From Lentzea aerocolonigenes (GTDB taxonomy: Bacteria; Actinomycetota; Actinomycetes; Mycobacteriales; Pseudonocardiaceae), in NCBI RefSeq assembly GCF_000974445.1, contig NZ_BBOJ01000004.1:248001-312000 (forward strand): DNA of 64,000 nucleotides, written 5' to 3'. Each line of letters opens with the position of its first letter. Position 1 is the first letter of the stretch. Below are positions 15,360-62,102 of the stretch, one piece after another. The notes under the pieces were generated by a model. It ran no database searches, was not told where the DNA came from, and saw only the letters and a program-made list of their open reading frames with translations. Both the position numbers and the translations under genes were made by a program.

Positions 15360-16277
15360 CTAGACCAGCCGAGCCCGAGCCGCCTCAACGGAATCGGACG
15401 CGTCCAGCAACGGCATCACCTGGGAAGCACCGTGCCGCACGGCCTTCGTGCGACGCGCGAACGACGTCAGCGTCTGCCCCGGCCCTGCCTCCACCAGCAG
15501 CACGTCGTACATCGCCAGCAGGTCGTTCAGCGCCGGTCCGAAGTAGACGGCGTCGGTCAGTTGCCGCGTCCAGAACCGCGGCGACAGCGCGTCCTGCGGA
15601 GTCATCAACGTGCCCGTGTAACCGGAGTACACGGGCATCCGGGGTACGGAAGGCGAGACGTTCCACGCCGCCAGCGCCTCGTCCACGGCGGGCTGCATCG
15701 CCGGGCTGTGGAACGGCGTGGTGGCGGGCACGGTCACCACGACGAACTCGTCCGCCTCCAACCGCGCGCGAACCGCGGCCAGCGGTTCATCCGATCCCGC
15801 CAGCATCGTCTGCCGGGCGGAGTTCACCGCCGCGATCGCCACGTCGCCTTCCAGGTACGGCATCAGCTCCGCCTCGGACGCCGCCACCGCCAGCATCCCG
15901 CCGGACGGGATCGACACGGCCGACACCACCCGGTCTCGCACCAGCGAAACGGCGTCCTCCAACGAGAAAACGCCCGCCAGCGTCGCCGCGACGACCTCGC
16001 CGGCGGAGTGCCCGATCAACGCGACGGGCTTGACGCCCCACGACAGGACCATGCGCCCCAGCGCGTAGTCGAGCGCGAACAGCAACGGCTGCGCGCGGGA
16101 CACGTGGTCGACGTCGGCCCCGGACAACCAGTCGTCACAGGCGACCGAGCCGACCTCGCCGAACAGCTCGAACACCTCGTCGACCACCGAGGTGAACACG
16201 GCGTCCGTGCCGTACAGGGACGCCGCCATCCGCGGGTACTGCGACCCCTGCCCGGGAAACATCAGTGCTACGTCCAC
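15360..16277 (-). CDS. Malonyl-CoA:ACP transacylase-type acyltransferase
   Basis: A 305-residue AT/FabD protein that loads acyl groups onto ACP. MFPGQGSQYPRM, the nucleophile elbow GHSAGE (S91), the arginine in LVRDRV and the histidine in TTPFHSPAM are present. It is the last gene of the leftward PKS operon. In type II systems with non-acetate starters (R1128, trioxacarcin) a dedicated acyltransferase accompanies a KASIII, sometimes acting as an editing thioesterase; both roles are possible here. A hairpin separates it from the KS-beta gene. Confidence 0.9.
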   Translation of the reverse strand: MDVALMFPGQGSQYPRMAASLYGTDAVFTSVVDEVFELFGEVGSVACDDWLSGADVDHVSRAQPLLFALDYALGRMVLSWGVKPVALIGHSAGEVVAATLAGVFSLEDAVSLVRDRVVSAVSIPSGGMLAVAASEAELMPYLEGDVAIAAVNSARQTMLAGSDEPLAAVRARLEADEFVVVTVPATTPFHSPAMQPAVDEALAAWNVSPSVPRMPVYSGYTGTLMTPQDALSPRFWTRQLTDAVYFGPALNDLLAMYDVLLVEAGPGQTLTSFARRTKAVRHGASQVMPLLDASDSVEAARARLV

Positions 16278-16329: not shown

Positions 16330-16340
16330 TGCGGGTGACA

Positions 16341-17555
16341 TCACCTGTACTCGCGAACCACCATGGCGGAGTTGAAGCCGCCCTTGCCGCGCCCGAGCAC
16401 CAGAGCGGCCTTCACCTTGCCGTGCCGCGCCTCGTTCATCACGAGGTCGATCTCGTACTCCGGCACGGGGTTCTCGACGTTGACGGTCGGCGGGATCGCG
16501 CTCCAGTAGATGGAGAGGATCGCCGACGCCACGTCCAGGGACCCGCCACCGGCGAACAGGCGGCCCGTCATGGTCTTCGGGGCCGTCACCGGCACGCCGA
16601 ACGGCCCGAAGATGCCCTTGATCGCCTCGGCCTCCGCCTTGTCGAGCTCGGGAATCCCCGCCGCGTCGGCGAACACGACGTCGATCTCCGAGGCGTCCAT
16701 GCCGGCGTCGCGCAACGCCAGCTCGGCCGCCCGCTTCAGCCCCGGCTCCCGCGAGGGCATCCGCGAGTCGAACGTCGAGGCGTACCCGACGATCTCGCCG
16801 TAGACGCGGGTGCCGGGACGCTCGGCCGCCGACTCCGGCGTCTCCAGCACCATGATCGCGCCGCCCTCACCGCAGACGTACCCGGAGGCGTCGCGGTCGA
16901 ACGGCAGGTAGGCCCGACGCGGGTTGTTGTTGCGGGACAACGAACCCGATGCCTGGTGCGCCACCCACGCCCACGGGCACAGCGAGGAGTCCATGCCGCC
17001 GGTCAGCGCGAGCTTGACGCCCTTGCGCAGCTGACGGCGGGCGTGCCCGATGGAGTCGATGCCACCGGCCTGCTCGGACACCACCACCGCACCCGGACCG
17101 CGCGTGCCGTGGCGGATCGAGATCTGGCCGGTGTTGACCGCGTAGAACCACGCGAACGACTGGTACGCCGAGACGTACTCCGGCCCCTGGTGCCACAGCT
17201 TCTGCAGCTCCCGCTGACCGAACTCGTACCCGCCCGCCGTCGCCGCGGTGATCACCGCGATGTCGGTGTCCGGGATGTCGTTCGGCTGCACACCCGCGCC
17301 GCGCAACGCCCAGTCCGTGCCCACCAGCGTCAACCGCGTCATGTGGTCCGTCTGCGGCAGCAGCCGGCCCTGCAGGTGCCGGCCTGCCTCGAAGCCCGGC
17401 ACCTCACCGGCGATCTTCGCCCAGTAGTTGGCACTGTCGAACCGGGTGATCGGCTTGATCGCCGCCTCACCGTGCAGGGTCGCCCGCCAGTACGCGGTCG
17501 GCCCCAGCCCGTTCGGCGACGCGATGCCGATTCCCGTCACCACCGCCCGAGTCAC
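16341..17555 (-). CDS. Type II PKS ketosynthase beta / chain length factor
   Basis: 404 residues. This partner of KS-alpha sets polyketide chain length and supplies the starter by decarboxylation. The thiolase fold is complete (VTRAVVTGIGIASPNGLG at the start, GYVCGEGGAIMVLE, MTGRLFAGGGSLDVASAI), but the active cysteine is replaced by glutamine in VVVSEQAGGID (about Q162), which defines KS-beta. The GTG start overlaps the KS-alpha TGA stop (GTGA), so the two subunits are translationally coupled, as expected for a heterodimer. Confidence 0.96.
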   Translation of the reverse strand: MTRAVVTGIGIASPNGLGPTAYWRATLHGEAAIKPITRFDSANYWAKIAGEVPGFEAGRHLQGRLLPQTDHMTRLTLVGTDWALRGAGVQPNDIPDTDIAVITAATAGGYEFGQRELQKLWHQGPEYVSAYQSFAWFYAVNTGQISIRHGTRGPGAVVVSEQAGGIDSIGHARRQLRKGVKLALTGGMDSSLCPWAWVAHQASGSLSRNNNPRRAYLPFDRDASGYVCGEGGAIMVLETPESAAERPGTRVYGEIVGYASTFDSRMPSREPGLKRAAELALRDAGMDASEIDVVFADAAGIPELDKAEAEAIKGIFGPFGVPVTAPKTMTGRLFAGGGSLDVASAILSIYWSAIPPTVNVENPVPEYEIDLVMNEARHGKVKAALVLGRGKGGFNSAMVVREYR

Positions 17556-18820
17556 CGGCCTGCCCCTTCCACCTTCTTGAGCACCATGGCGCTCTGGAAT
17601 CCACCGAAACCACTGCCCACAGTCAGCACCGTGTTCACCTTCGCCTCCCGCGCGACCAGCGGCACGTAGTCCAGGTCGCACTCGGGGTCCGGCTCGTGCA
17701 GGTTCGCCGTCGGCGGGATGAGGCCCTCCTCGAACGCCAGCAACGAGCCGACGATCTCGAGCGACCCGATCGCGCCGAGCGAGTGCCCGATCATCGATTT
17801 GAAGCCCGACACCGGCGTCTTGTAGGCGTGCGCGCCCAACGAGCGCTTGAACGCCGCCGTCTCGTGCAGGTCGTTCTGCTTGGTGCCCGACCCGTGCGCG
17901 TTGATGTAGCCGACGTCCGTGGCGTCCGAACGCGCCTGCTTCAACGCGATGTTGATGGCGTCCGACATCTCGATGCCCTCGGGGTGCAGGCCCGTCATGT
18001 GGTAGGCGTTGCACCGCGAGGCGAAGCCGGCGACCTCACCGTAGATGTGCGCACCGCGGGCGCGGGCGTGCTCCAGCTCCTCGAGCACGATGATCGCGCA
18101 CCCCTCGCCGAGGACCAGACCGTCGCGGGTCTTGTCGAACGGGCGGCAGGCCGTCGTCGGGTCGTCGTTGCGGGTGCTGGACGCACGGATCACGTCGAAG
18201 CACACCACGGTGATCGGCGAGAGCGGGGCCTCGGTGCCGCCGGTGACGACGACGTCCGCACTGCCCTCCATGATCAGCTCGGCGGCGTAGCCCACCGAGT
18301 CGAGACCGGAGGTGCAGCCCGTGGAGACCACGGAGACCGGGCCTTCCGCGCCGACCGTCCACGCCAGCTCCGTCGCCATCGAGGACGGCGTGAAGTAGTC
18401 GTAGAGGTGCGGAACGGCGTAGGACTGGTCGACCTCCCAGTACTTGCCCCGGTCGGAGCCGACGATGAACTCGCGCTCCAGCGAGGTCGTGCAGCCGACC
18501 GCGGTGCCGAGCGAGACACCGATGCGGCCGGGGTCGAGCTGGTCGAACTCGATGCCCGAGTCGGCCAGAGCCTCACGACCGGCCACGACGGCGAACTGCG
18601 CCGCGCGGTCGAGCCGCCGGATCTCCTGCGGCGTCAGGCCTTCGCGCACTGGGTCGAAGTCCGCTTCACCAGCCATGCGCGAGCGGTACGGAGACGCGTC
18701 GAAGTGCGTGATGATGCGAGTCGCCGTACGCCCTTCGGACAGCAGTTTCCAATACGCCTTCGTTCCGATGCCACCAGGTGCGACCACGCCCACCCCGGTG
18801 ATGACGGCGCGACGACTCAT
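17552..18820 (-). CDS. Type II PKS ketosynthase alpha
   Basis: A 422-residue condensing enzyme that extends the poly-beta-keto chain on ACP. It starts MSRRAVITGVGVVAPGGIG; the active-site cysteine is in VSTGCTSGLDSVG (C169), with the histidine segments INAHGSGTKQND and KSMIGHSLGAIGS and a standard C-terminus GFGGFQSAMVL. It forms the minimal PKS with the neighbouring KS-beta and the ACP 2 kb upstream. The start overlaps the stop of the HMGL-like gene (ATGA). Confidence 0.97.
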   Translation of the reverse strand: MSRRAVITGVGVVAPGGIGTKAYWKLLSEGRTATRIITHFDASPYRSRMAGEADFDPVREGLTPQEIRRLDRAAQFAVVAGREALADSGIEFDQLDPGRIGVSLGTAVGCTTSLEREFIVGSDRGKYWEVDQSYAVPHLYDYFTPSSMATELAWTVGAEGPVSVVSTGCTSGLDSVGYAAELIMEGSADVVVTGGTEAPLSPITVVCFDVIRASSTRNDDPTTACRPFDKTRDGLVLGEGCAIIVLEELEHARARGAHIYGEVAGFASRCNAYHMTGLHPEGIEMSDAINIALKQARSDATDVGYINAHGSGTKQNDLHETAAFKRSLGAHAYKTPVSGFKSMIGHSLGAIGSLEIVGSLLAFEEGLIPPTANLHEPDPECDLDYVPLVAREAKVNTVLTVGSGFGGFQSAMVLKKVEGAGR

Positions 18821-19524
18821 CGGACACCTCCAATCGCCTTCTGTGCGGACACGGTCTGCTCCAATCTCGGACAGGGCACGGGAGCGACACCTGTTTCTGC
18901 CGGTTGAACCGATGGTGAAACGGCCCGATCGAGGCCACCTCGAACGACGGCGTAGAACCCCTGTACGAGTCCAGCCCCCGCATCCGCGGCGAACAACTGC
19001 AACGCCTCGGAGCCGTCGTGACAACCAAAACCAAGAGGCACACCGGTTTCCGCAACCACCTCGACGATCTCGCCGATCTGGTCGGGCCACAGCCCGCCCG
19101 CTGTGTCGTGCAGCAACACGGTTTCCGCCCCCGCCTCCGCGACCGTCAGCACGACCTCCAAAGCGTGTTCGGGGTCGACCAGCCAGCCGTCGAAGAAGTC
19201 CCGCGCCTCGACGATCACTCGCCGTCCGGCGCGCACGAGTTGACGCACGGCGTCCCGGACCACCGGGATGCCGTGCCCTTGAACAACCACCGTCACCGCC
19301 GAGGTCTCCGCGGCGAGCAGCGAGGTGAGGTCCTCGGCACCGCCGGACGCGACGAGGATGGCGGCGCGCAACCGGAGTTCCAGAGCGGCACGGTGGTAGA
19401 ACCACCGCCCCGGCCGGCCTCCGTCGACGAACGCGACGCCGAGCGCGTCGAGGCGCCGCGCCGCGACCAGTCTGTCCGAAATGGACAAACCAGTGCGGCG
19501 CAGCGAGATGTCGTACAGCTCCAT
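18817..19524 (-). CDS. Degenerate citramalate/isopropylmalate-synthase-like (HMGL) protein in the PKS operon
   Basis: A 235-residue fragment-length relative of the HMGL TIM-barrel family, closest in memory to citramalate synthase (MELYDISLRRTG, ARRLDALGVAFVDGG, VEARDFFDGWLVDPEHALE, HDTAGGLWPDQIGEIV). Full enzymes exceed 500 residues; the C-terminal part is missing. Key positions are altered: LRDG reads LRRTG, so the metal Asp is lost, and the HxHN metal motif reads FGCHDG, with only one His left. A changed or scaffolding function is therefore likely. It is coupled to KS-alpha by ATGA, so it is a real operon member. Confidence 0.7.
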   Translation of the reverse strand: MELYDISLRRTGLSISDRLVAARRLDALGVAFVDGGRPGRWFYHRAALELRLRAAILVASGGAEDLTSLLAAETSAVTVVVQGHGIPVVRDAVRQLVRAGRRVIVEARDFFDGWLVDPEHALEVVLTVAEAGAETVLLHDTAGGLWPDQIGEIVEVVAETGVPLGFGCHDGSEALQLFAADAGAGLVQGFYAVVRGGLDRAVSPSVQPAETGVAPVPCPRLEQTVSAQKAIGGVR

Positions 19525-19548: not shown

Positions 19549-19755
19549 CTAGAAGCCGCTCAGCAGTACGCGGGAAGCCTCGATCTCGTAAGCACAGGGC
19601 GCCACCTCAGAAGGGCATCCCTTGCGCTCGTGCTCGACCGCGGCCTTCTCCAGGTACATGGAGACCACGTACAGCCCGTTGCGACCCGCGGCACGGGCCG
19701 CGGCGGTCAGCAGGTCCACGCCGGCCAACGCCATCGCCCACCACCCCCGGACCAT
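19549..19755 (-). CDS. 68-residue small protein of the PKS operon
   Basis: MVRGWWAMALAGVDLL starts a short protein with an amphipathic alanine-rich first half and a second half containing two cysteines (KGCPSEVAPCAYEIEAS). I recognise no family. Its start overlaps the aromatase stop (ATGA) and it keeps the reading direction and coupling pattern of the operon, which argues that it is translated. It could be a small partner of the neighbouring HMGL-like protein or aromatase; this is a guess from position. Confidence 0.5.
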   Translation of the reverse strand: MVRGWWAMALAGVDLLTAAARAAGRNGLYVVSMYLEKAAVEHERKGCPSEVAPCAYEIEASRVLLSGF

Positions 19756-20690
19756 CAGCCGTTCTCGGCGAACTCCTTGGCGTGCCGCAACGTCGTGAGG
19801 CTGTTCGTGCCCAACGCGTGGCGGATCAGTTCCCTGGCGCGCTCGATCGTCCCGTCCGGGCCGAGCACCTCGGTGACGACCTCGGGACGGATGACGACGG
19901 TGTGGTGCGAGGTCGCCTCGACACCCGCCTCGATGCCGTCACCGATGTCCCGCAACGTCCACCGGCCGACGTGCGCCGCCATGATCGGCGGCGTCCTGGT
20001 CTGCTTGTAGACGATCGTGTCGTGCGGAGTGCAGACCCGCACCGAGTGCGTCGTGTGGATCGAGCCGTCCGGGCTGCGCGTGTCCATCTCCATGGACTGC
20101 ACCCCCGTCACGGCCTCGGTGAGGTCGAGCCGGGCGACGTGCGGCAGCCGCTGCGGCCACAGGTCCGACCGGTACAGGAACTCGTACACGTCCTTGCGGG
20201 TCGCGTGGATCGTGATGCTGTCGGAGAACGACAGCACGTACTTGTCGTAGTCGTCGCCGAGCTCGGCGGCGCGCTTGAGCGCCGCGAGCTCGGCGTCGCT
20301 GTTGTTGTTCACGGCCTTCAGGACCAGCTCGACCGCTTCCGGCTGCGCGGTGGTGAAGTGGTGCAGCAGGTCGACGCGCGTCGCCGAGTCGGCGATCGGC
20401 ACGATCCGCCACTCCCCTCCCATCGACTTCACCGGCGCCGCCGAACGCTCCTGCTCGAACTTGACGTGCAGGTTCGCCGAGTCCAGCTCACGGCGAGACG
20501 TCCACGTGCGCACGTCACCGTTGGCGAAGGCGTGCAGCCGCAGCCGCTCGGTCGACCCGTCGGTCTCGAACACCTCGGCGTGCACCGTGGGCCCGAAGGT
20601 GTACGGCCAGCGCGTCACGTCCGCGATCAGGTCGTACACCACCTTGGCGGGGGCACCGATCATGACCGTGTGCGTGGTGGTGTGCGTCAT
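19755..20690 (-). CDS. Di-domain aromatase/cyclase
   Basis: 311 residues made of two SRPBCC (START-like) domains, roughly residues 1-145 and 155-311, each beginning with a short helix-strand (THTVMIGAPAKVVYDLIADV; DSITIHATRKDVYEFLY). Di-domain ARO/CYC proteins (ActVII, BexL type) fold and aromatise the first ring of C9-reduced polyketides, which agrees with the ActIII-like ketoreductase at 53.3 kb. It lies between the ACP gene (34-base gap) and the 68-residue ORF in the PKS operon. Confidence 0.92.
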   Translation of the reverse strand: MTHTTTHTVMIGAPAKVVYDLIADVTRWPYTFGPTVHAEVFETDGSTERLRLHAFANGDVRTWTSRRELDSANLHVKFEQERSAAPVKSMGGEWRIVPIADSATRVDLLHHFTTAQPEAVELVLKAVNNNSDAELAALKRAAELGDDYDKYVLSFSDSITIHATRKDVYEFLYRSDLWPQRLPHVARLDLTEAVTGVQSMEMDTRSPDGSIHTTHSVRVCTPHDTIVYKQTRTPPIMAAHVGRWTLRDIGDGIEAGVEATSHHTVVIRPEVVTEVLGPDGTIERARELIRHALGTNSLTTLRHAKEFAENG

Positions 20691-20723: not shown

Positions 20724-20975
20724 TCAGGCCGCGAGGTCGCCGTTGACCTTGGCCAGCAGTTCGCGCGGGGTCTCGATGTCCGCGAGCTCGTCGTCGCCGA
20801 CACCGACGCCGTACCGGCGCTTGATCAGCGCCACCGTCTCCAGCAGGGCCAGCGAGTCGAAGCCCAGCTCGAGGAACGGAGTGTCGAGAATGTCCTGGCC
20901 GGCCTTGAACGAGTCGTCCTCGCCGGCGGCCTCGTTGAGAATCTCCTTGAGACCCTCGATGGTCAGTGCGCTCAC
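20724..20975 (-). CDS. Type II PKS acyl carrier protein
   Basis: An 83-residue ACP with the phosphopantetheine serine in LGFDSLALLE (S41) and the acidic helices usual for type II PKS carriers. It carries the growing chain for KS-alpha/beta. It is the first gene of the leftward PKS operon (ACP, ARO/CYC, small ORF, HMGL, KS-alpha, KS-beta, AT). The order with ACP first and KS last is unlike the common KS-KS-ACP order. The start follows AGGAAAGGAAGAAGCC. Confidence 0.96.
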   Translation of the reverse strand: MSALTIEGLKEILNEAAGEDDSFKAGQDILDTPFLELGFDSLALLETVALIKRRYGVGVGDDELADIETPRELLAKVNGDLAA

Positions 20976-21134: not shown

Positions 21135-21941
21135 TCAGGCCAGAAGCCCTTGCAGTTGACGGGCTTCCGCGCGGTCGAGCCGCGGGTCCGACGTGACGAT
21201 CGCGTGCTGCAGCTGCTGCAGGCGTGCCGAGGGCTCGACGCCGAGCTCGTCGACGAGCGTGCGCCGCAACGCCCGGAACGCGTCCAGCGCCTGCCACTGC
21301 CGACCCGCCCGGAACAACGAGATCATGTACTGGGCACACAGGTGCTCGTTCATCGGGTGCTGCACGGTCAGCACGGCGAGCTCGCTCAGCAACGACTTGT
21401 GCTTGCCCAGCCGCATGTCCGCCTCGATGCGCGTCTCCAGCACACCGAGCCGTGCCTCCTCCAGGCGCACCACTTCGACGCCCAGCGGCATGCCGGGGCG
21501 GACGTCCACGACGGCGGGCCCGCGCCACATCTCCAGCGCCGACCGCAGCAGCCGGGACGCGGCCGCGAAGTCGTCGGCGTCGTAGGCGTTCTGGCCGGCA
21601 CGGGCGAGGCGCTCGAACTCGTGCACGTCGACGGCCTCCTCCGGCACGTCGAGCAGGTAGCCGCCGTACCGGGTGACGAGCACCTCCTTGGCGCCGTTCT
21701 CCGACGTGGCCAGCGCGTCGCCGATCAGCCGGCGCAGCTGCAGGATGTAGGTCTGCAACGTGGTGCGCGCGCTGCGCGGCGGGCGGTCGTCCCACAGCTC
21801 CTCGACCAGGGTCGGCACGGACACCACCGAGCCGGAGTGCAGGGCGAGCAGCGCCAGGATCTGCCTCGGCTTGGCCGCTGTCGGCGTCACCGAGCGACCG
21901 TTCACCTTGGCCTCGACCGGCCCCAGGACCTTGATCTGCAT
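21135..21941 (-). CDS. SARP-family transcriptional activator
   Basis: 268 residues: an N-terminal OmpR-type winged helix (MQIKVLGPVEAKVNG, TAAKPRQILALLALHSG, ARTTLQTYILQLRR) followed by a bacterial transcriptional activation domain ([53 protein letters not shown]). Such short SARPs (ActII-ORF4, DnrI size) activate antibiotic genes by binding TCGA-type heptamer repeats. The start is the ATG after AGAAGGAGGGACGGCG; an upstream start would add 25 unlikely residues. It is divergent from the precursor peptide gene and 120 bases upstream of the PKS operon promoter. Confidence 0.95.
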   Translation of the reverse strand: MQIKVLGPVEAKVNGRSVTPTAAKPRQILALLALHSGSVVSVPTLVEELWDDRPPRSARTTLQTYILQLRRLIGDALATSENGAKEVLVTRYGGYLLDVPEEAVDVHEFERLARAGQNAYDADDFAAASRLLRSALEMWRGPAVVDVRPGMPLGVEVVRLEEARLGVLETRIEADMRLGKHKSLLSELAVLTVQHPMNEHLCAQYMISLFRAGRQWQALDAFRALRRTLVDELGVEPSARLQQLQHAIVTSDPRLDRAEARQLQGLLA

Positions 21942-22044: not shown

Positions 22045-22089
22045 GGTATGAGAACTTCATACCGGGGCGCATTAGCCGGTAACTACCGG
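22045..22089. promoter_or_regulatory. Two perfect inverted repeats in the SARP/precursor divergent promoter
   Basis: GGTATGA-GAACT-TCATACC (22045-22063) and CCGGTA-AC-TACCGG (22076-22089) lie in the 210-base region between the leftward SARP gene and the rightward precursor gene. Both are perfect and AT-richer than the surroundings. They could bind a LuxR-type response regulator or another dimeric regulator. No other feature was seen in this gap. Confidence 0.45.
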
Positions 22090-22151: not shown

Positions 22152-22334
22152 ATGTACCCCACCGTCACCGTGGAGCACCTTGCTTCGGTCGCCGCCGACG
22201 ACTCCGACGACATGAAGATCTACGAGTTCGACCGTGAAGCCACGATGGACTGGACTACGTGGATCGTCCCCAGCTGCGGCTGGACCTCGCCCGGTGACCG
22301 CTTCCAGGTCCAAGAAGAGGTCCTCGCGGCATGA
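22152..22334 (+). CDS. Putative RiPP precursor peptide (60 aa)
   Basis: A 60-residue peptide starting MYPTVTVEHLASVAADD. GGAG stands 6 bases before the ATG at 22152; an ATG two codons earlier is less well placed. The first ~30 residues are acidic and leader-like. The end (MDWTTWIVPSCGWTSPGDRF, then an acidic tail) carries Thr, Ser, one Cys and three Trp, residues that YcaO enzymes or partners could modify. Its stop overlaps the start of the YcaO gene (ATGA), the classic position of a TOMM substrate. I do not recognise the core from any known family; the precursor role is inferred. Confidence 0.6.
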   Translation: MYPTVTVEHLASVAADDSDDMKIYEFDREATMDWTTWIVPSCGWTSPGDRFQVQEEVLAA

Positions 22335-24583
22335 GACACGACCTGGGCGAGCAACGCATCGGGTTCAAACGGCACCTCCGCCCGCAGATCGTGCGAGGTG
22401 AGGCCGTCTACCTGTTCGGGGAGTCCGGGGTCACGGCGATCGCGGGCAGCCACGTCGAGTCGCTGGCGCCGTTGCTCGACGGCACCCGCGACCTGGCCGC
22501 ACTGCTGCGCGACGCCCCCACCGGCCTGACCGCCGACAAGGTGCGGAGCATGCTCACCAGGCTCGCCGCGGCGGGGCTGATCGGCAGCCGCGGCGCGGAG
22601 GACTGCTCGCCCGCGGCGGAGGCCTCGCTCGCGTACTGGGACGCGGCGGGGGTCGACCCGTCGGACGCGGTGGCGGCGACAACGGCGTCGCTCGTCTCCG
22701 TGGTCGCGATCGGCGGCATCGATCGCGACGCGCTCGTGGAAGCCCTGCACCGCAACGGACTGACGGTCACCTCGGGGAGTGGTGACCTCACGGTCGTGGC
22801 GTGCGAGGACTACCTGGCGCCTGAGCTCCGCGACGTCGACGCGACCCACCGGGCGGCCGGCACCCCGTGGTTGCTGGTCAAGCCGGTCGGCGCGCAGGTG
22901 TGCGTGGGCCCGTTCTTCACCCCCGGCGACGGCCCGTGCTGGCGGTGCCTCGCCACCAGGCTCTCCGCGAACCGCAAGGCGGAGGCCCACGTGCGGGCGC
23001 GGTGCGGACAACGTGGTCCCGCGCCGCGCCCGGTGATCGGCCTGCCGTCGTTGCGGGCGACGGCGCTCGACCTCGCGTCGGTCGAGGCGACGAAGTGGCT
23101 CGCCGGAATCCGGCACGAGGCGCAGCGGTCGATCTGGAACTACGACAGTCTCACCATGAAGGTCACGCAGCACGAGGTGCGGCAGCGTCCGCAGTGCTCC
23201 GGCTGCGGCGCCCCGGGGATTGTGGCGCGCAGGGCGTTCAAGCCGGTCGAGCTCACGAGCCGGGTGAAGCGGTCCTGCGAGGGTGGCGGCCACCGGTCGT
23301 CCTCACCGCAGGAGGTACTCGACACGTACCGGCACCTCATCGGGCCTGTCACGGGCGTGGTGAGGGAGATCCGCCGCAACGAGTGCGGGCCCGCGTTCTT
23401 CAACTCGTTCATGTCCGGCTCGAACGTCGCCGCCGCGGGCGAGGGCGTCGAGGGGCTGCGGTCGTCGCTGCGGGCCGACACCGGGGGCAAGGGCGTGACG
23501 CCGCTCGACGCCCAGGTCGGCGCGCTGTGCGAGGCCGTGGAACGACGCAGCGGCACGTGGTTCGGCGAAGAGGCCAGGGTGAGCGCCAGCTACGCCTCGC
23601 TCAGCGACGTCGCGATCCACCCCGGCAGCGTGCAGCAGTACCACCCGCGCCAGTTCGCCGGCCGCGAGGAGTGGAACGCGGCCCACTCGGCGTTCCAGCA
23701 CGTCACCGCCCCGTTCGACGAGAACGAGGTGATGGACTGGAGCCCGCTGTGGTCGCTCACCGAACGACGTCACAAGTTCCTGCCGACCGGCATGCTCTAC
23801 TTCGGCGCCCCCTGCCCGCCGAGCGTCACGTCGGACTCGAACGGCTGCGCCGCCGGAAGCAGCCTGGAAGACGCTGTGCTGCAAGGACTTCTGGAGCTGA
23901 TCGAACGCGACTCGGTCGCCATCTGGTGGTACAACCGCACACCGGTGCCGGGGGTGGACCTCGACTCGTTCCACGACGCGTGGATCGACGAGTGCCGCGA
24001 GGTGCACGCGGGTCTCGGCCGCGAGCTGTGGCTGCTCGACGTGACCGCCGACCTCGGCGTGCCGGTGATGGTCGCTCTTTCCCGCCGCACCAACGGATCC
24101 CGCGACGACATCATGCTCGGCTGCGGTGCGCACCTGGACCCGCGGATCGCCGCACGCCGGGCGCTCACCGAGCTGAACCAGTGCATGCCGATGGTCTGCG
24201 GGCAGGTCCGGCTGGACGCGCTCGACGTCGACACGCGGAACTGGTTCGAGCACACCCGCCTCGACGAGCAGCCGTGGCTGGCCCCCGACCCCGCCGAGCC
24301 GCCGCGCAACGTGTTCCACCACGGCTACCGGCACCGGCGCGACCTCGCCGACGACATCCGGGCGATCCAGGACACGCTGGAGGCCCGCGGGCTGGAGCTG
24401 CTGGTGCTCGACCAGACCAGGCCGGACATCGGTCTTCCCGTGGTCCGCGTGGTCGTGCCGGGACTGCGGCACTTCTGGTCGAGGTTCGCTCAAGGGCGCC
24501 TCTACGACGTCCCGGTACAACTGGGGCGCCTGGACCGGCCCCGCCGGTACGAGGAGCTCAACCCGATCCCGTTGTTCATGTGA
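22331..24583 (+). CDS. Fused ThiF-like/YcaO cyclodehydratase (TOMM C-D protein)
   Basis: 750 residues. The N-terminal ~300 residues resemble the E1/ThiF-like leader-binding partner, with a zinc site formed by CWRC (C203, C206) and CSGC (C289, C292). The C-terminal YcaO domain has ATP/Mg motifs KGVTPLDAQVGALCEAVERR (E401 region), LLELIERDSVAIWW (E522 region) and AARRALTELNQ, and ends ELNPIPLFM, a proline-containing tail typical of E1-dependent YcaOs. Such enzymes phosphorylate backbone amides to form thiazolines/oxazolines in ribosomal peptides. It is translationally coupled to the 60-residue peptide. Thioamide or amidine formation are alternatives. Confidence 0.88.
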   Translation: MRHDLGEQRIGFKRHLRPQIVRGEAVYLFGESGVTAIAGSHVESLAPLLDGTRDLAALLRDAPTGLTADKVRSMLTRLAAAGLIGSRGAEDCSPAAEASLAYWDAAGVDPSDAVAATTASLVSVVAIGGIDRDALVEALHRNGLTVTSGSGDLTVVACEDYLAPELRDVDATHRAAGTPWLLVKPVGAQVCVGPFFTPGDGPCWRCLATRLSANRKAEAHVRARCGQRGPAPRPVIGLPSLRATALDLASVEATKWLAGIRHEAQRSIWNYDSLTMKVTQHEVRQRPQCSGCGAPGIVARRAFKPVELTSRVKRSCEGGGHRSSSPQEVLDTYRHLIGPVTGVVREIRRNECGPAFFNSFMSGSNVAAAGEGVEGLRSSLRADTGGKGVTPLDAQVGALCEAVERRSGTWFGEEARVSASYASLSDVAIHPGSVQQYHPRQFAGREEWNAAHSAFQHVTAPFDENEVMDWSPLWSLTERRHKFLPTGMLYFGAPCPPSVTSDSNGCAAGSSLEDAVLQGLLELIERDSVAIWWYNRTPVPGVDLDSFHDAWIDECREVHAGLGRELWLLDVTADLGVPVMVALSRRTNGSRDDIMLGCGAHLDPRIAARRALTELNQCMPMVCGQVRLDALDVDTRNWFEHTRLDEQPWLAPDPAEPPRNVFHHGYRHRRDLADDIRAIQDTLEARGLELLVLDQTRPDIGLPVVRVVVPGLRHFWSRFAQGRLYDVPVQLGRLDRPRRYEELNPIPLFM

Positions 24584-24608
24584 CCCACCTGCCCGGAGCG
24601 GAGGCGCC

Positions 24609-25250
24609 GTGGTGCCCACCCAGTCGCACATCCCCACGGGACGCCCGCTGTGGTCGTTGCTCGAGGACGCCTTCATCGACGAGGGCGCCGAGCACCTGAC
24701 CGTCCACGGCAGGTGGGGCGCGATCAAGCTCGCCGACCCGAGCCCCATCGTGCGGGAGGCGTTGCACCGCATGAGCCTCGGCCCGGTCGCGCTCGAGAAC
24801 ATCTCCGCGCTGCACGAGAACTTCGTGCGCTGGAAGACCGGCAGCGGGCCGTGCCTCGTGTGGCGCAGGCTCAAGAACACGCTCGACCAGCTGGGAGGTT
24901 GCGTCGTGCCGTCGCTCGGGCTCGACGACGGCGCCGGGCCGATCCTGTCGGTCGTGGCGGTGACCGGTGACGCCGTGTTCACGTTGCCGCACGTCGAGGA
25001 CGACGAGATCGTCTCCACGCGGCCGGGCACCGAGATCGAGCGGCTGAACGGCGACCAGGCGCTGACGTGCCCTGGCCGGCAGTACCAGGTGATCCTGCAC
25101 AGCGCGCCCGCGACGGAGATCGCGAAGACGTTGCTCGACAGCGACACCACGATCGCGCAGATCGCGGAGTCGTTGCAGGTCAGCAGGACGCTGGTCGCGG
25201 ATGTCGTCGCCTATCTCGCCGGTGCGCAGCTCGTCGCCGCGAGGTGTTGA
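24609..25250 (+). CDS. SagB-dehydrogenase N-terminal-like protein lacking the nitroreductase domain
   Basis: 213 residues. The segments HLTVHGRWGAIKLADPSPIVREALHRM, LGPVALENI and SLGLDDGAGPILSVVAV resemble the region before the FMN domain in actinobacterial SagB-type TOMM dehydrogenases. The C-terminal third (TIAQIAESLQVSRTLVADVVAYL) is helix-turn-helix-like. The protein ends at AAARC with no FMN nitroreductase domain. It may recognise the peptide or support the YcaO protein rather than oxidise azolines. The GTG follows CGGAGCGGAGG and lies 26 bases after the YcaO stop. The family link is from memory and moderate. Confidence 0.6.
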   Translation: MVPTQSHIPTGRPLWSLLEDAFIDEGAEHLTVHGRWGAIKLADPSPIVREALHRMSLGPVALENISALHENFVRWKTGSGPCLVWRRLKNTLDQLGGCVVPSLGLDDGAGPILSVVAVTGDAVFTLPHVEDDEIVSTRPGTEIERLNGDQALTCPGRQYQVILHSAPATEIAKTLLDSDTTIAQIAESLQVSRTLVADVVAYLAGAQLVAARC

Positions 25251-25352
25251 GACGTCGCCATGTTGCTCCGATCGAGGATCGCGAAACACGAGACTTCCCA
25301 GGAAGCGCCCGTATCATGGCCGCGTCCCGACCCTCGCGTGGGAGCTGCTGCT

Positions 25353-27608
25353 GTGACAGTGCGACAGGAACGCTCATCGGTGTCCCGTCGCTTGGCGTAC
25401 GTCGTCATCACCGTGGTGTTCGCCAACTACCTCGGCAACGCCTTGATCTTCGTCCTGCAGGCCGGCGCGACGCCCGCGCGGATCGTGGGCGCGCTGGCCT
25501 GTCTGCTCTCGATCGGGTTCCTGCAGCTGCGGGTGTTCTCCCGGCCGAGCGCGAACCTGAGGTCCGGCAAGGCGTACCTGGCGCTGGGTGCGATGGCGTT
25601 GCTGGTGTTCGCGCCGGTGCCGTTCTTCGGCTACGCGTGGGGCGGCATGCCCGGTTTTCTCGCGGGCAGCGCACTGCTGGTGCTGCCCGGCCGCGTGCGG
25701 TGGTTCGTGTTCGTCGGGGTGGCGGTGGCCAACGCCGCGACCAAGTTCACTCCCGGCATCTCGCTCGGCGTGCTGGCCTACTCCGCGGCGGCGACACTGG
25801 TCGCGGGCCTGGTCGTCTACGGCCTGTCGCGGCTGCCGTCGCAGGTCTACCAGCTCGAGACCGCCCGGTCGGAGCTCGCCGACCTCGCGGTGTCGCAGGA
25901 GCGGTTGCGGTTCGCCCGCGACGTGCACGACCTGCTCGGGTTCAGCCTGTCCGCGATCACGCTCAAGGTGGAGCTCGCCCGCAAGCTGATCGGCGACCAC
26001 ACCGACCGCGCCGTGCGCGAGCTGACGGAGATCCTCGGCATCGCGCGTGAGGCGTTGACGGACGTTCGTGCGGTCGCGTCGAGCTATCGCGAGCTGTCGC
26101 TGACCGACGAGATCAACTCGGCGCGGTCCGTGCTCACCGCCGCCGGCGTGGCGGCCACGATCGAGGCGGACCACGCCGAACTCTCGCCGCGCTCCCGGAC
26201 CGTGCTGGCGACCGTGCTGCGCGAGGGCGTGACGAACCTGCTGCGGCACAGCAACGCCACCCGCTGCTCGATCACCGTCAGCGGCAGGGGCAGGACGGTG
26301 TCGATCGACATCGTCAACGACGGCAGCCCCGCCGAGGTGAGCACGGACCACGGCAGCGGCCTCACGAACCTCGCCACGCGCACCAGCGCCATCGGCGGAT
26401 CGCTGCTCGCGAAAGCCTCCCCGGACGGCACCTACCAGCTGCGCGCCGAGGTACCGGCCGATCCGGCACCCGAGCAGCCCACCAGCCGTCCCCGCCTGAT
26501 CGGCCCGTCGATCCCGACTACGTTCGCGCAGGTGCTGCTGACCGCGGTGGTGATCGGGTACGGCGTGATGGCGACGGCGCTCGCCACGTACAGCGTCCCG
26601 ATCGGGTCGGCCGCGTTCGCCTCCTCCGCCGTGAGCAGCGCTCTGATCGCCCTGCTGGTGCTGGGTGTCGTGAGCCATCCGCGGGTGCGGACCAACCCCG
26701 CGCTCGGTTACGCGGCGCTGGCGGGACTGGCGGTCTGCGTCTACGTGCCGCAGTTCGTGTTCCACAACCCGAACCTCGGCGGTGTGCCGGGCTTCCTCGC
26801 CGGTTCCGCGGCGCTGATCCTGCCGCGGTGGTCCGGCTGGGTCGGGTTCGTGGCCGTCGTCGCCGGGCAGGGCGTCATCCAGGCGGCGTTCGGCTTTCCC
26901 ACGAACGACATCGCGTACGGCGTGATGGCCACGATGAACCACGGCCTGGTGCTGTACGCGTTGACGCGGCTGCGGTCCATGGTGATCGAGCTGCACGAGG
27001 CGCGGGAGGAGCTCGCGACGGCGGCGGTGACGCAGGAACGGCTGCGGTTCGCGCGCGACCTGCACGACCTGCTCGGCTACAGCCTGTCCGCGATCACGTT
27101 GAAGAGCGAGCTCACCCACCGGCTGGTCACGATCGACCCCGACCGCGCCCGCCAGGAGCTCACCGAGGTTCTCGACATCTCCCGGCAGGCGCTCGCGGAC
27201 GTGCGGTCGGTGGCGTCGAGCTACCGCGAGCTGTCGCTGAACGAGGAGACCCAGTCCGCGCAGGCGTTGCTGTCCGCGGCCGACATCGACGTGACGATGC
27301 GGATCGACGAGTGCACCGAGCTGCCCACGGACGTGCGGGTGACGCTCGCGACGGTGCTGCGGGAGGGCGTGACGAACCTGCTGCGGCACAGCAAGGCGGA
27401 GCGCTGCGAGATCGTGCTGTGCAGCTCACCGCAGCGGGTGACGATGGACATCATCAACGACGGCGTGCCCTCGTCGGACCGGGACTCGCGCAGCGGCAGC
27501 GGCATCGGGAACCTGACGACCCGCGTGTGCGCGCTCGGGGGCAGCCTCGACGCCGGGCCGACGCCGGAGCGGACGTTCCGGCTGCACGCGGAGATCCCGC
27601 TGGGTTAG
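25353..27608 (+). CDS. Tandem double DesK-type sensor histidine kinase
   Basis: 751 residues with two full kinase modules. Each has about four to five hydrophobic segments, then a HisKA_3 helix with the phosphoacceptor (FARDVHDLLGFSLSAITLK, H192; FARDLHDLLGYSLSAITLK, H571), an N-box (LREGVTNLLRHS in both) and a glycine-rich HATPase end (HGSGLTNLATR; SGSGIGNLTTR). There is no stop or frameshift between the modules, so this is an in-frame fusion or duplication. The GTG at 25353 with GGGAG before it is preferred. It is downstream of the YcaO genes and convergent with a LuxR regulator, its likely partner. Confidence 0.9.
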   Translation: MTVRQERSSVSRRLAYVVITVVFANYLGNALIFVLQAGATPARIVGALACLLSIGFLQLRVFSRPSANLRSGKAYLALGAMALLVFAPVPFFGYAWGGMPGFLAGSALLVLPGRVRWFVFVGVAVANAATKFTPGISLGVLAYSAAATLVAGLVVYGLSRLPSQVYQLETARSELADLAVSQERLRFARDVHDLLGFSLSAITLKVELARKLIGDHTDRAVRELTEILGIAREALTDVRAVASSYRELSLTDEINSARSVLTAAGVAATIEADHAELSPRSRTVLATVLREGVTNLLRHSNATRCSITVSGRGRTVSIDIVNDGSPAEVSTDHGSGLTNLATRTSAIGGSLLAKASPDGTYQLRAEVPADPAPEQPTSRPRLIGPSIPTTFAQVLLTAVVIGYGVMATALATYSVPIGSAAFASSAVSSALIALLVLGVVSHPRVRTNPALGYAALAGLAVCVYVPQFVFHNPNLGGVPGFLAGSAALILPRWSGWVGFVAVVAGQGVIQAAFGFPTNDIAYGVMATMNHGLVLYALTRLRSMVIELHEAREELATAAVTQERLRFARDLHDLLGYSLSAITLKSELTHRLVTIDPDRARQELTEVLDISRQALADVRSVASSYRELSLNEETQSAQALLSAADIDVTMRIDECTELPTDVRVTLATVLREGVTNLLRHSKAERCEIVLCSSPQRVTMDIINDGVPSSDRDSRSGSGIGNLTTRVCALGGSLDAGPTPERTFRLHAEIPLG

Positions 27609-27856: not shown

Positions 27857-28462
27857 TCAGATCCAGCCCGCTTCCTCGGCGATGCGGATCGCGTCCACCC
27901 GGTTGCGGCCGTTCAGCTTGGTGATGATCGTCGTCATGTAGTTGCGCACCGTCCCGGTCGACAACGACAGCGCGACCGCGATCTCCGGTGCGTCCGACCC
28001 GGCCGCGGCCAGGCGCAGCACCTCCAGCTCGCGGTCCGTCAGCGGGCACTCGCCCCGGTCCCACGCGGCGAGCGCCAGCTGCGCGTCGACCACCCGCTTG
28101 CCCGCGGCCACGTCGCGGATCGCGTCGGCGAGCTGGCCGGGCGGAGCGTCCTTGAGCAGGAAGCCGTCCACGCGGGCCGCCAGCGCCTTGCGCAACGTGC
28201 CGGGCCTGCCGAGCGACGTGAGCATCAGCGTGCGGACCGACGGCAGCGTCTCGCGGATCTTCGCGGCCGCGGTGAGGCCGTCGAGGATCGGCAGGTCGAT
28301 GTCGATCACCGCGACGTCCGGCATCAGCTGCTTCGCCGTGGGCACGATCTTGTCCCCCGAGCTCACCTCGGCGACGACCTCGATGTCCGGTTCGAGGTTG
28401 AGCAGCGCGATGAGGGCACCGCGCACCATGTGCATGTCCTCGGCCAGCAGAACCCTGATCAT
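27857..28462 (-). CDS. NarL/LuxR-family response regulator
   Basis: 201 residues: a receiver domain (MIRVLLAEDMHMVRGAL, phosphoacceptor in VAVIDIDLPILDG, LMLTSLGRPG, FLLKDAPPGQLADAI) and a C-terminal LuxR helix-turn-helix (LTDRELEVLRLAAAG, LSTGTVRNYMTTIITKLNGRNR). DesK-type kinases partner with this family; the tandem kinase gene converging on it is the obvious mate. The start follows CGGAGGGGCGCG. Targets may include the inverted repeats at 22.05 kb or the SARP genes (inference). Confidence 0.94.
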   Translation of the reverse strand: MIRVLLAEDMHMVRGALIALLNLEPDIEVVAEVSSGDKIVPTAKQLMPDVAVIDIDLPILDGLTAAAKIRETLPSVRTLMLTSLGRPGTLRKALAARVDGFLLKDAPPGQLADAIRDVAAGKRVVDAQLALAAWDRGECPLTDRELEVLRLAAAGSDAPEIAVALSLSTGTVRNYMTTIITKLNGRNRVDAIRIAEEAGWI

Positions 28463-29161: not shown

Positions 29162-30184
29162 GTGCGCGTCGACGGCATCTACGTGCGGGGCAACGGGATC
29201 CGCCTGCCCGCCACGCTGAACGTGCAGGACGCCATCGACTCCGGCGAGTGCGAACCGAAGCTGGTGGCGCGCACGGACGTCACGAGCGTCGCGTACTCCC
29301 CCGACGAGTCGGCCGCCGAGATGGGTGTTCGCGCGGCCCAGCAGGCACTCGCGCGCGCCGGCAGCACCGGCGAGGACGTCGAGCTGATCCTGCACGCCAC
29401 GACCTACCACCAGGGCCAGGACCTGTGGCCCGTCGGCAGCTACATCCAGCGCGAGACCGTCCGCAACAGCTGCCTGGCGCTGGAGATCAGGCAGATGTCC
29501 AACGGTGGCATGGCCGCGCTGGACCTCGCCGTGCGGTACCTGAGCCCTGGCCGGGACGCGCTGCTGACCACGGCCGACCGGTTCTGCCTGCCGGGCATCG
29601 ACCGGTGGCGCACCGATCCCGGAACCCCTTACGCGGACGGGGCGAGCGCTGTCGTGCTGTCGCGGCGCGGCGGGTACGCGCGGTTGCTCTCCTTGGCCAT
29701 CAACGCGGATTCGGACCTGGAGCCGTTGCACCGCGGTGACGAACCGATGGGGCTCGCGCCGTTCTCGCACCGCATGCCGGTGGACTTCGAGGCCGCCAAG
29801 CACGCGTTCGCGAAGAAGTTCGGACTTTCCTTCGGCATCAACAGGGCCAACGCCGGCCAGGCGGCCGCGGTCGAGGAAGCGCTGGCCGACGCGGACATGA
29901 AGCTCGGCGACGCCGACTGGGTGGTGCTGCCGCACTTCGGCAGGCGCCGGCTGGACGTGAACTACCTGCGGCCCTACGACATCGACCCCGCGCGGACGAC
30001 GTGGGAGTGGAGCCGCACGGTCGGGCACCTCGGCGCGGGCGACCAGTTCGCGGGACTCGGCCACCTCGTCGACACCGGCAGGGCCCGTCCTGGGCAGCGG
30101 GTTGTGCTGTTCGGCGTCGGCGCTGGCTACAGCTGGGGCTGCGCGGTCGTGGAGATCGACGCGAAGCCGTCCTGGGCGGCCTGA
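29162..30184 (+). CDS. KASIII-like acyltransferase with a Ser-His-Asp active site
   Basis: 340 residues of the FabH/thiolase fold. The nucleophile cysteine position reads serine in EIRQMSNGGMAALDL (S113), the histidine is in VLPHFGRRRL (H258), and the usual FabH asparagine is aspartate in GAGDQFAGL (D294). DpsC of daunorubicin synthesis also has serine and starts chains with propionyl-CoA; CerJ/ChlB-type relatives use a Cys-His-Asp triad to transfer acyl groups to sugars. Either starter priming with a branched acyl-CoA or acyl transfer is possible. A starter role fits the racemase and acetolactate synthase genes. Confidence 0.87.
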   Translation: MRVDGIYVRGNGIRLPATLNVQDAIDSGECEPKLVARTDVTSVAYSPDESAAEMGVRAAQQALARAGSTGEDVELILHATTYHQGQDLWPVGSYIQRETVRNSCLALEIRQMSNGGMAALDLAVRYLSPGRDALLTTADRFCLPGIDRWRTDPGTPYADGASAVVLSRRGGYARLLSLAINADSDLEPLHRGDEPMGLAPFSHRMPVDFEAAKHAFAKKFGLSFGINRANAGQAAAVEEALADADMKLGDADWVVLPHFGRRRLDVNYLRPYDIDPARTTWEWSRTVGHLGAGDQFAGLGHLVDTGRARPGQRVVLFGVGAGYSWGCAVVEIDAKPSWAA

Positions 30185-30263
30185 GCGCGGTTCAAGCGGG
30201 ATCCCAGAGGGTTTTGGCTGGATGTAGGCGACACCCGGTGGCTTTTCGAAAGGAACTCAGACC

Positions 30264-31082
30264 ATGTCCGACCAGCCGTTTGAAGGCCAGCGAGTCGTCG
30301 TCACCGGTGGTGGCACCGGAATCGGCAAGCACGCGGCCGTCGAGTTCGCGAAGCTCGGCGCAGCGAGCGTGATCATCACCGGCCGCCGCAAGGAGCGGCT
30401 GGACGAGGTCGCCGAGCTGCACCCGAACATCGTCCCGGTCGCCGCGGACGTCACCACGGCCGAGGGCGCGCAGGCCGTCGCCGTCGCCGTGGAGACCAAC
30501 GGCGGCAAGCTGGACGTGCTCGTGCACAACGCCGGAATCTTCCGCAACACGCTCGCCGAGTACTTCGACGAGAAAGCCAGCAACGAGCTGCTCAACATCA
30601 ACCTGCTCGGCCCGGTCCGCCTCACCGGCGCGCTGTACCAGTACCTTTCCAAGCCGGGCGGCAACATCGTCTTCGTCTCGTCGGTCGCGGGCCACAACCC
30701 CGAGCCCGGTGCCGCCCTGTACGCGGCCAGCAAGGCCGGCATGCACAGCCTCACCCTGACGTGGGCCCGCGAGCTCGCACCGCTGGGCATCCGGGTCAAC
30801 GCCGTCGCCCCGGCCGGCGTGCGCACCGAGGTCTACGCGGCCAACGGCCTCAACGACCAGGAGACCGACGCGATCTTCGCGACGCTGGCGGACATCATGC
30901 CGCTGGGCCGCACCGGCACGGTCGAGGACATCACGCCGTGGATCACGCTGCTCGCGAGCCCCGCCAGCTCCTGGGTCACCGGCCAGATCATCACGATCGA
31001 CGGCGGCCAGGACCTCACGGCGGGCACCGACCACCTGTTCATGTCGTGGTTCCGCTCCCGCCTCGAAGGCGACGCGGCCTGA
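30264..31082 (+). CDS. Short-chain dehydrogenase/reductase
   Basis: A 272-residue classical SDR: cofactor motif VVVTGGGTGIGKHAAVE, NAG in VLVHNAGIF, catalytic Ser in FVSSVAG and YAASKAG (Tyr-x3-Lys). The basic residues after strand 2 (TGRRKERL) suggest NADPH. It probably reduces a ketone of the polyketide, sugar or starter. It follows the KASIII-like gene with an 80-base gap; GAAAGGAACTCAGACC precedes the ATG. Confidence 0.9.
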   Translation: MSDQPFEGQRVVVTGGGTGIGKHAAVEFAKLGAASVIITGRRKERLDEVAELHPNIVPVAADVTTAEGAQAVAVAVETNGGKLDVLVHNAGIFRNTLAEYFDEKASNELLNINLLGPVRLTGALYQYLSKPGGNIVFVSSVAGHNPEPGAALYAASKAGMHSLTLTWARELAPLGIRVNAVAPAGVRTEVYAANGLNDQETDAIFATLADIMPLGRTGTVEDITPWITLLASPASSWVTGQIITIDGGQDLTAGTDHLFMSWFRSRLEGDAA

Positions 31083-61286: not shown

Positions 61287-62102
61287 TCAACCGGCGAGCT
61301 GCCGCTCCAGCTGACGTGCGGACGTCGGGCCGTTCAGCGACGGGTCGGAGCTGAGGATCGCGCACTGCAGCTGGCGCAGGCGTTCCGACGGCTCCAGGCC
61401 GAGCTCCTCGATCAGGGTGTCGCGCAACGACTGGTACGCCTCCAGAGCACGCCACTGACGGCCAGCGCGGTAGAGCGCGAGCATGTACTGCGCGCAGAGG
61501 TTCTCGTGCATGGGGTGCTGCGCGGTGAGCACGGACAGCTCGCTCAGCAACGACTGGTGCTTGCCCAGCCGCAGGTCCGCCTCGATCCGCGCCTCCAGGA
61601 CGCCGAGCCGCGACTCCTGCAGCCGCGTGACCTCCATGCCCAGCCGCACACCGATCTGGACGTCCACGAGCACCGGCCCGCGCCACACGTCGGTGGCCGA
61701 CCGCAGCAGCCGTGACGCCGACTCGAGGTCACCGACCTCCAGCGCGCGTTGACCGGCCGTGGCGAGCCGCTCGTAGCTGCGCACGTCGATGGTCTCCGGC
61801 GCGACGTCGAGCATGTAGCCGCCGTAGCGGGTGACGAGCACGTTCTTCGCCGCGCCGGCACTGCCCTCGGGAAGCGCCGCCTCGATGCGGCGACGGACCT
61901 GGAGGACGTATGTCTGCAACGTGGTGAGCGCGCTTCTCGGCGGTGTGACCCCCCACAGCTCTTCGATCAGGGTGGGCACGGTGACGACGTGCCCCGCCTG
62001 CAACGCGAGCAGCGAGAGGACCTGCCGCGGCTTCACCGCGCTCGGCGTGATCGAGATGCCGTTCTCCCTGGCCTCCAGCGGTCCGAGAACTTTGATCTCC
62101 AT
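61287..62102 (-). CDS. SARP-family transcriptional activator (second)
   Basis: 271 residues with the same layout as the SARP at 21.1 kb and obvious paralogy ([81 protein letters not shown]). It is the first gene of a leftward unit with the acetolactate synthase genes. CTGGGGAGGGATCCCGTC precedes the ATG. It probably binds the heptamer repeats listed in this window; which sites belong to which SARP is unknown. Confidence 0.95.

Follow-up and report, generated by a model that had tools for sequence, protein, structure and literature searches.

We analyzed a 64,000-nucleotide stretch of the Lentzea aerocolonigenes genome (contig NZ_BBOJ01000004.1, positions 248,001 to 312,000; hereafter the window), in which a short peptide gene and a gene for a YcaO-type modification enzyme lie beside a type II polyketide synthase (PKS) operon. 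Four genes read in one direction form an apparent operon, in which neighbours either overlap or are no more than 25 bases apart: a precursor peptide, a fused E1-like/YcaO protein (YcaO), a clamp protein (P3) and a membrane histidine kinase (HK). The gene of a NarL-family response regulator (RR) is convergent to HK, and that of a SARP transcriptional activator is divergent from the precursor. The original prediction had described a peptide gene overlapping a ThiF-like/YcaO gene and followed by a SagB-N-terminal-like gene, and this arrangement is confirmed; its view of the module content was right, but it overlooked HK, which begins nine bases downstream, and the cognate RR. As it had also stated, neither an exporter nor a peptidase gene is found in the four-gene block.

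The precursor gene (22152..22334, plus strand) encodes 60 amino acids and shares four bases with the start of YcaO. It comprises a conserved leader that ends in DDMKIYEFD (22152-22232), a variable core (about 22251-22313, WTTWIVPSCGWTSPGDRFQVQ; boundaries drawn from conservation, not from a product) and a conserved C-terminal EEVLAA (22314-22331). An alternative start at 22146 was rejected: its ATG is missing in L004, L005, L006, L011, L012, L015 and L017, all of which retain the CGGAG ribosome-binding site. The start at 22152 is thus the better one. Profile searches returned no family match for the window precursor. Most Lentzea cores carry an aromatic residue followed by Ser, Thr or Cys, plus one more Thr or Cys and frequently a Pro-Gly behind it, a pattern not followed by L007 and some diverged cores. 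The leaders are conserved, and 23 of the 24 Lentzea cores are distinct. Two other loci are of note. The peptide encoded upstream of YcaO in L156 is a multi-core precursor, in which a QFTFCAQPDP-like unit occurs three times, and acyl carrier protein (ACP), cyclase and ketosynthase (KS) genes lie downstream. A second, HK-less YcaO locus of a Lentzea genome (L056:7916-8152) has a precursor-like open reading frame (ORF) of 78 residues; its leader motif, LLIDTFD, is similar, and its C-terminal half contains three cysteines.

YcaO (22331..24583, plus strand, 750 amino acids) is a fused E1-like/YcaO cyclodehydratase of the LynD/TruD type. It scores above the NCBIfam cut-offs for TIGR03882 and TIGR03604, the leader-binding and SagD-type domains, and matches LynD (E 2e-158) and TruD (E 9e-155) over its full length. 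Its CxxC zinc cysteines (203/206 and 289/292) show no change across 20 aligned rows, and, as predicted earlier, the enzyme appears to be intact. In L052 (G010, a one-contig genome) the YcaO frame is broken near residues 173-216 (about 9305-9830), by either gene loss or sequencing error. P3 (24609..25250, plus strand, 213 amino acids) is a stand-alone peptide-clamp domain of the SagB/ThcOx-type oxidases with no flavin domain; its homologues in L100 and L019 run on into a TIGR03605 dehydrogenase domain. The top match of its AlphaFold model (predicted local distance difference test score, pLDDT, 83) is the N-terminal part of ThcOx (5lq4, E 2e-10, template modelling score 0.68 by query), followed by PqqD and the leader-recognition domain of PbtF at E values above 0.001. 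Because P3 lacks the flavin oxidase domain, the product is likely to carry azolines and not azoles. The block has two features of an azol(in)e-type ribosomally synthesized and post-translationally modified peptide (RiPP) system, namely an E1-like leader-binding domain with a YcaO cyclodehydratase and, in all 24 Lentzea genomes, an adjacent precursor with a conserved leader and a Ser/Thr/Cys core.

HK (25260..27608, plus strand, 782 amino acids), the proposed receptor, is a tandem kinase composed of membrane part 1 (residues 1-205), kinase part 1 (206-400), membrane part 2 (401-570) and kinase part 2 (571-782), with borders drawn from hidden Markov model hits and hydropathy and membrane passes assigned by hydropathy only. 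Each kinase part has a histidine box, and per-site entropy peaks in the second membrane part. RR (27857..28462, minus strand) has 201 amino acids; SARP (21135..21941, minus strand) is the proposed output. The promoter region shared by SARP and the precursor contains a 15-bp palindrome (TATGAGAACTTCATA, 22047..22061, unstranded; consensus TATGA-N5-TCATA), a candidate RR site judging by its conservation. It is aligned in the SARP/precursor intergenic regions of all 24 Lentzea genomes; six of these copies depart from it by one to three letters. The pattern taken from the alignment matches the window exactly at this place and nowhere else within two mismatches (chance expectation 0.69). With a matrix built from the same 24 sites, weaker matches turn up at the corresponding position in L018, L020, L093-L097 and L099; there is none at the expected place in L100, none in L145 and only a 9.3-bit site in L136.

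YcaO orthologues at 80-90% identity occur in 17 named Lentzea genomes, and all 24 Lentzea genomes searched possess YcaO (with the broken frame in G010), P3 and HK. The peptide search detected the precursor in 19 of them; the other five (G007, G008, G014, G016 and G019) have a diverged precursor before YcaO. The conservation of the peptide beside YcaO, on which the original prediction hinged, is therefore found in 24 of 24 genomes. Among ten stretches from other genera of the family, SARP-YcaO-P3-HK-RR was identified in six (L093-L097 and L099), variant orders in L100, L101 and L102, and only P3 in L098; eight of the ten have a precursor with the leader motif. In a class-wide sample, 26 of 394 genomes matched and 18 stretches were examined; YcaO, HK and RR are close together in 13 of these: every one of the 12 from genus g71, and one of the six that come from different genera. 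Genus g71 belongs to another family; the locus of Streptomyces dysideae (L018) is similar to those found in it. A search of this genus matched 30 of 150 genomes and yielded 26 further stretches, the other four being already in the earlier set; HK lies beside YcaO in all 26 and RR in 25. In seven stretches of 18-20 kb around other YcaO genes of Lentzea (L054-L060), the same tblastn filter left neither an HK nor an RR hit.

The genes at the locus differ widely in their divergence. Mean pairwise differences among 18 species are 0.015 for the ketosynthase alpha (KSa) and 0.019 for the chain length factor (CLF) of the neighbouring PKS, 0.061 for its cyclase, 0.077 for its acyltransferase (AT) and 0.097 for SARP, against 0.151 for P3, 0.176 for YcaO, 0.232 for HK and 0.407 for the precursor. 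We compared core distances with protein distances by partial correlation, controlled for the SARP plus RR distance. Among 19 species (the set without the five diverged ones), the correlation with the core is 0.75 for each of the two membrane parts of HK, 0.47 for kinase 1 and 0.17 for kinase 2; it is 0.45 for YcaO, 0.31 for P3, 0.15 for AT, 0.12 for KSa, 0.05 for the cyclase and 0.03 for the leader. Over all 24 species the values are 0.72 for membrane part 2, 0.44 for membrane part 1, 0.34 for kinase 1, 0.21 for kinase 2, 0.45 for YcaO, 0.27 for P3 and 0.12 for the leader. In sliding windows (18 species, with L052 also left aside for its broken YcaO frame) the correlation peaks at up to 0.73 over the membrane segments and ranges from -0.19 to 0.21 in kinase 2; it is also low in AT, the cyclase, the first half of P3, SARP and RR.

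When near-identical cores among the 19 species were thinned to a single representative, which left 13 species, the membrane parts retained 0.61 and 0.54, with 0.26 for kinase 2, 0.37 for YcaO and 0.24 for P3, whereas kinase 1, which sits between the two membrane parts in the same gene, fell to -0.06. As a negative control we used a second histidine kinase of the cluster (62.5-63.5 kb in the window), whose membrane region is as variable as membrane part 2: it gives 0.13, versus 0.76 and 0.78 for the membrane parts of HK in the same 17 species (without L009 and L013). A direct comparison at similar SARP and RR divergence shows the same pattern, the nonsynonymous difference (pN) of membrane part 2 from the window being 0.059 for L009, which has nearly the same core, and 0.26-0.30 for L013, L015 and L016, which have other cores. 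The pattern was replicated in 31 single-HK loci of genus g71, where the membrane domain given kinase and RR correlates with the core at 0.62, and the kinase given membrane and RR at -0.08 (0.58 and -0.21 for 24 representatives). These 31 remained from 37 loci with a core after removal of L168 (no RR in range) and of L144, L145, L150, L173 and L018 (no or two kinase boxes by pattern); no core was assigned in L156 (multi-core) or in L171 and L174 (no precursor found). At the level of these comparisons, the pairing of the core with HK is well supported.

The core and the receptor also part company with their surroundings. In 17 of 24 cases the species closest in its core is closest in membrane part 2 as well; the flanks agree with the core in this way in 11 of 24 (ties allowed). 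The flanks of L006 are 0.8% from those of L003, yet its core and receptor group with L008; likewise, by core and receptor L005 groups with the window and L009, and L007 with L052. A flank tree of SARP, RR, cyclase and AT rejects the groups {window, L009, L005} (P value of the approximately unbiased test, p-AU, 1e-10) and {L001, L013} (2e-5), both of which the receptor tree contains. The receptor tree, in turn, rejects {window, L009, L013, L015, L016}, {L006, L002, L003, L004} and {L007, L002, L003, L004, L006}. In G007 and G016, identity to the window is 61-62% for YcaO, 66-69% for P3 and 52-53% for HK, as compared with 97-99% for KSa and 83-84% for SARP; their precursors are also very different from the common type. 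Judging by these trees and distances, the block is exchanged as a cassette, while the KS pair next to it stays almost constant. Several genomes have additional kinases right behind the receptor gene. L002 has a second intact tandem HK (15299-17623); in its membrane parts this kinase shares 89% and 81% identity with the HK of L052, against 74% and 48% with the genome's own HK; the extra HKs in L004 (from 15324), L008 (from 15267) and L014 (from 15304) have a first unit without a histidine box. The extra HKs in these four genomes look like displaced receptors.

We propose, with a probability of about 0.7, that the block encodes an autoinducing peptide that is matured by YcaO, read by HK and acts via RR on the SARP/precursor promoter and hence on the PKS. 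In this scheme YcaO would bind the leader through an IxxFD motif and, assisted by P3, cyclize Ser, Thr and Cys residues of the core to azolines, which would probably stay unoxidized to azoles since P3 has no oxidase domain. The trimmed product would leave the cell and be recognized by the membrane domains of the HK from the same operon. HK would then phosphorylate RR, which would act at the palindrome between SARP and the precursor and turn on SARP, through SARP the type II PKS, and also the signal operon itself. Cores and receptor domains would diversify jointly and travel between species as a cassette, like the pherotypes of Bacillus ComQXPA. Gene content, conservation, the hypervariable core, co-variation, cassette discordance and the conserved palindrome are established by sequence analysis; from these we infer the product chemistry, export, cleavage, kinase binding, phosphotransfer, and control of SARP and the PKS.

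A number of observations weigh against this proposal. YcaO also co-varies with the core, as would suit a maturase, and over all 24 species its value is as high as that of membrane part 1; kinase 1 co-varies before thinning, and kinase 2 reaches 0.26 after it. Since SARP and RR define the flank control, their own lack of co-variation is not independent evidence. Rank-based values for the membrane parts are lower, at 0.50 and 0.38 in the 19 Lentzea species and 0.28 in g71 (where the rank-based kinase values are -0.04 and -0.09). Permutations reached the membrane values 0 times in the 19-species, 24-species and g71 tests and 0 or 1 times in 1000 in the thinned test, and they do not correct for relatedness. 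The trees are quick ones and the groups were named after the distances had been seen; the flank tree, moreover, does not reject {L006, L008} (p-AU 0.345) or {L007, L052} (0.126). RR of G007 and G016 is 82-83% identical to that of the window, compared with 86-95% in the main group, and therefore the exchanged piece may exceed the operon. A second copy of the palindrome was sought before the PKS operon and none was found, so that control of the PKS would have to go through SARP. The AlphaFold model of the YcaO fusion is poor (pLDDT 51) and was not used. Finally, by gene content the block contains no exporter or protease gene, no protease-specific search having been made.

The main rival explanation is a self-inducing antimicrobial peptide of the linear azol(in)e-containing type (LAP), comparable to nisin with NisRK, in which the kinase senses the product, the selected function is killing, and the core evolves in an arms race. 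Such a system would yield the same co-variation of core and receptor, and cores with several Cys, Ser and Thr residues are LAP-like; the L156 precursor has its three QFTFCAQPDP-like repeats. We nevertheless regard it as unlikely in view of the gene content. Self-inducing lantibiotic units include a dedicated exporter of the ATP-binding cassette (ABC) type; a rough motif scan for ABC-type ATPases, which in the control L059 recovered one of two transporter-like genes and does not cover other exporter types, gave 0/23 Lentzea stretches, 0/11 other stretches of the family (nine with the module) and 3/45 class stretches (L146, L147 and L153). The scan's only hit in the window, at 48702, lies 21 kb past HK and outside the block. 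In the ORF lists inspected, no gene other than the regulators recurs beside the block, and no immunity genes were recognized there, no search having been aimed at them.

Core and kinase domains could also vary jointly through linkage and one-piece recombination with no functional contact, as they lie within about 5 kb of each other and move together. Under such hitch-hiking the intervening segments should not escape, yet sliding windows over the first ~115 residues of P3, which is encoded between YcaO and HK, do not exceed 0.03 (0.38 at its C-terminal end), and kinase 1, between the membrane domains, loses its correlation on thinning. Together with the low value of the second-HK control and the independent repetition of the pattern in g71, this makes hitch-hiking improbable. 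A still poorer prospect is that the peptide acts inside the producer, as a modified cofactor or structural peptide, with the kinase sensing something else. The lack of an exporter gene in the block would suit it; a hypervariable core tied to membrane domains is, however, unlike known peptide cofactors, and the ComQXPA census gives no known exit route for ComX either (PMC4008528).

The neighbouring PKS operon, the proposed downstream target, lies on the minus strand and encodes ACP (20724..20975), a cyclase/aromatase-like protein (19755..20690; named by appearance, with only a weak RatA-like NCBIfam hit), a short citramalate/isopropylmalate-synthase-like (aldolase-like) protein of 235 amino acids (18817..19524), KSa (17552..18820), CLF (16341..17555) and a malonyl transferase-like AT (15360..16277). 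Among solved structures, KSa is closest to the actinorhodin ketosynthase. The genes AT-CLF-KSa-aldolase-cyclase-ACP-SARP adjoin the module in 23 of 24 Lentzea genomes, and KSa identity is 97% or more in 21 of the genomes and 89% in two others; in G019 it is 66%, and the match there is on a different contig from the module. In G019 (L051), SARP, precursor, YcaO, P3, HK, RR and a second SARP/HK/RR trio stand side by side with no PKS gene between them, next to the same LLM-lipB-sucB-lpd genes and thus at the same chromosomal place. Among the 44 class-wide and g71 stretches, KS hits occur only in L133, L144, L156, L161 and L174. L101, one of the ten stretches from other genera of the family, has ACP and cyclase; the stretches from other genera are short, and more distant PKS genes are possible.

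The original prediction had offered two readings of this neighbourhood. A conserved RiPP module sharing regulators with the PKS was borne out, and a separate ribosomal product under shared regulators came nearer the mark, although the evidence indicates that this product is the input of those regulators. The other reading, in which the type II polyketide is carried by the peptide or conjugated to it as in goadvionin- or lipolanthine-like hybrids, has the PKS linkage in Lentzea and the scattered KS, ACP and cyclase genes elsewhere on its side, but is very improbable, because the PKS is missing from the G019 module and KS from most other-genus stretches, and the hypervariable core does not track the nearly invariant KSa (CLF being equally so), AT or the cyclase.

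Further features of the cluster are recorded here. The 18817-19524 protein has a counterpart in Lentzea loci with the operon (43-44% identity in L048 and L049). Synonymous differences (pS) between the window and the more distant L001, L002, L005, L047 and L050 are 0.13-0.23 for KSa and CLF versus 0.28-0.39 for cyclase, AT and SARP, as if the former were exchanged or constrained at the codon level. The region past HK varies between Lentzea lineages; in the window, 29162-45000 holds KASIII, two glycosyltransferase-like proteins, an MFS exporter and oxidoreductases (by appearance except KASIII); such tailoring genes point to an aromatic polyketide that is glycosylated. A second SARP/HK/RR trio closes the cluster at its other end (window 61287-64000, L061:801-1475), composed of a second SARP (61287..62102, minus strand), a kinase (within 62147-63550, plus strand) and an RR (from 63800, minus strand) that extends past the window end. 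The trio thus lies at 61-64 kb in the window, with a 33-kb stretch between the two regulatory sets; it adjoins the module in G019 and several other-genus loci. No leader-motif precursor was seen beside the second HK in translations inspected by eye.

Taken beyond Lentzea, these loci probably represent a widespread actinomycete quorum-sensing family with a YcaO-cyclized pheromone, a DesK/ComP-like kinase (tandem-fused in Lentzea), a SARP output, cassette-exchanged pherotypes and displaced receptors; as part of the same reading, and with the same somewhat guarded confidence, its SARPs would control polyketide and other antibiotic-type clusters. A survey of the open-access literature by title and abstract found no report of signalling by a YcaO peptide and a kinase or of this Lentzea locus. 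If the proposal is true, peptide pheromones with predicted receptors would offer a handle for waking silent clusters, in which the product of the matching core should switch SARP on, and YcaO peptides so far catalogued merely as putative thiazole/oxazole-modified microcin (TOMM) peptides would gain a role. Because cores and receptors come in matched sets in many species, their specificity is open to direct tests.

Among known systems, the block resembles the LAPs/TOMMs (the cyanobactin enzymes LynD and TruD; TIGR04351) in its full-length LynD/TruD-like enzyme, and TIGR04351 is matched by two related precursors, from L159 and L138, one with 94.9 bits (cut-off 65) and one below it at 47.2. It differs from them in that it lacks an oxidase domain as well as genes for a protease or an exporter, and in including a kinase/regulator pair. 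Proteases of the PatA/PatG type, as in cyanobactin clusters, are not seen in the operon by gene content, no protease-specific search having been made. P3 shares the fold of the N-terminal part of ThcOx, of the ThcOx/SagB oxidases, but has no flavin oxidase domain. Goadvionin and lipolanthine are RiPP-polyketide hybrids with RiPP genes beside polyketide genes; the Lentzea PKS, in contrast, is of type II and dispensable to the module, the constant linkage of PKS and RiPP genes expected of such hybrids being broken in G019 and most other-genus stretches.

In its proposed working the block is like ComQXPA, the quorum-sensing system of Bacillus, which also combines a short precursor, a dedicated modifying enzyme, a membrane kinase and a response regulator. 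ComP and ComA belong to the HisKA_3/NarL type. The Lentzea block shares with this system a precursor with a hypervariable end next to its maturase, and a multi-pass HisKA_3 kinase (passes by hydropathy) with a variable membrane domain and a NarL-type regulator. According to the ComQXPA census, variation in the peptide is greatest at the active end, the kinase is variable in its N-terminal domain and the regulator is most conserved, and the systems counted there include none outside Firmicutes (PMC4008528). The Lentzea block, unlike ComQXPA, is found in actinomycetes and has a tandem fused kinase, a SARP beside it and an extra clamp protein; its maturase is YcaO and not the isoprenyl transferase ComQ, and besides it the operon has no enzyme gene other than those of P3 and HK. 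Because the maturase is unrelated, we do not count the block as a ComQXPA member. Antibiotic clusters of actinomycetes are known to be controlled mainly by small-molecule signals, gamma-butyrolactones among them, and the co-variation of peptide and membrane sensor described here suggests a so far unreported peptide signal for antibiotic-type clusters.

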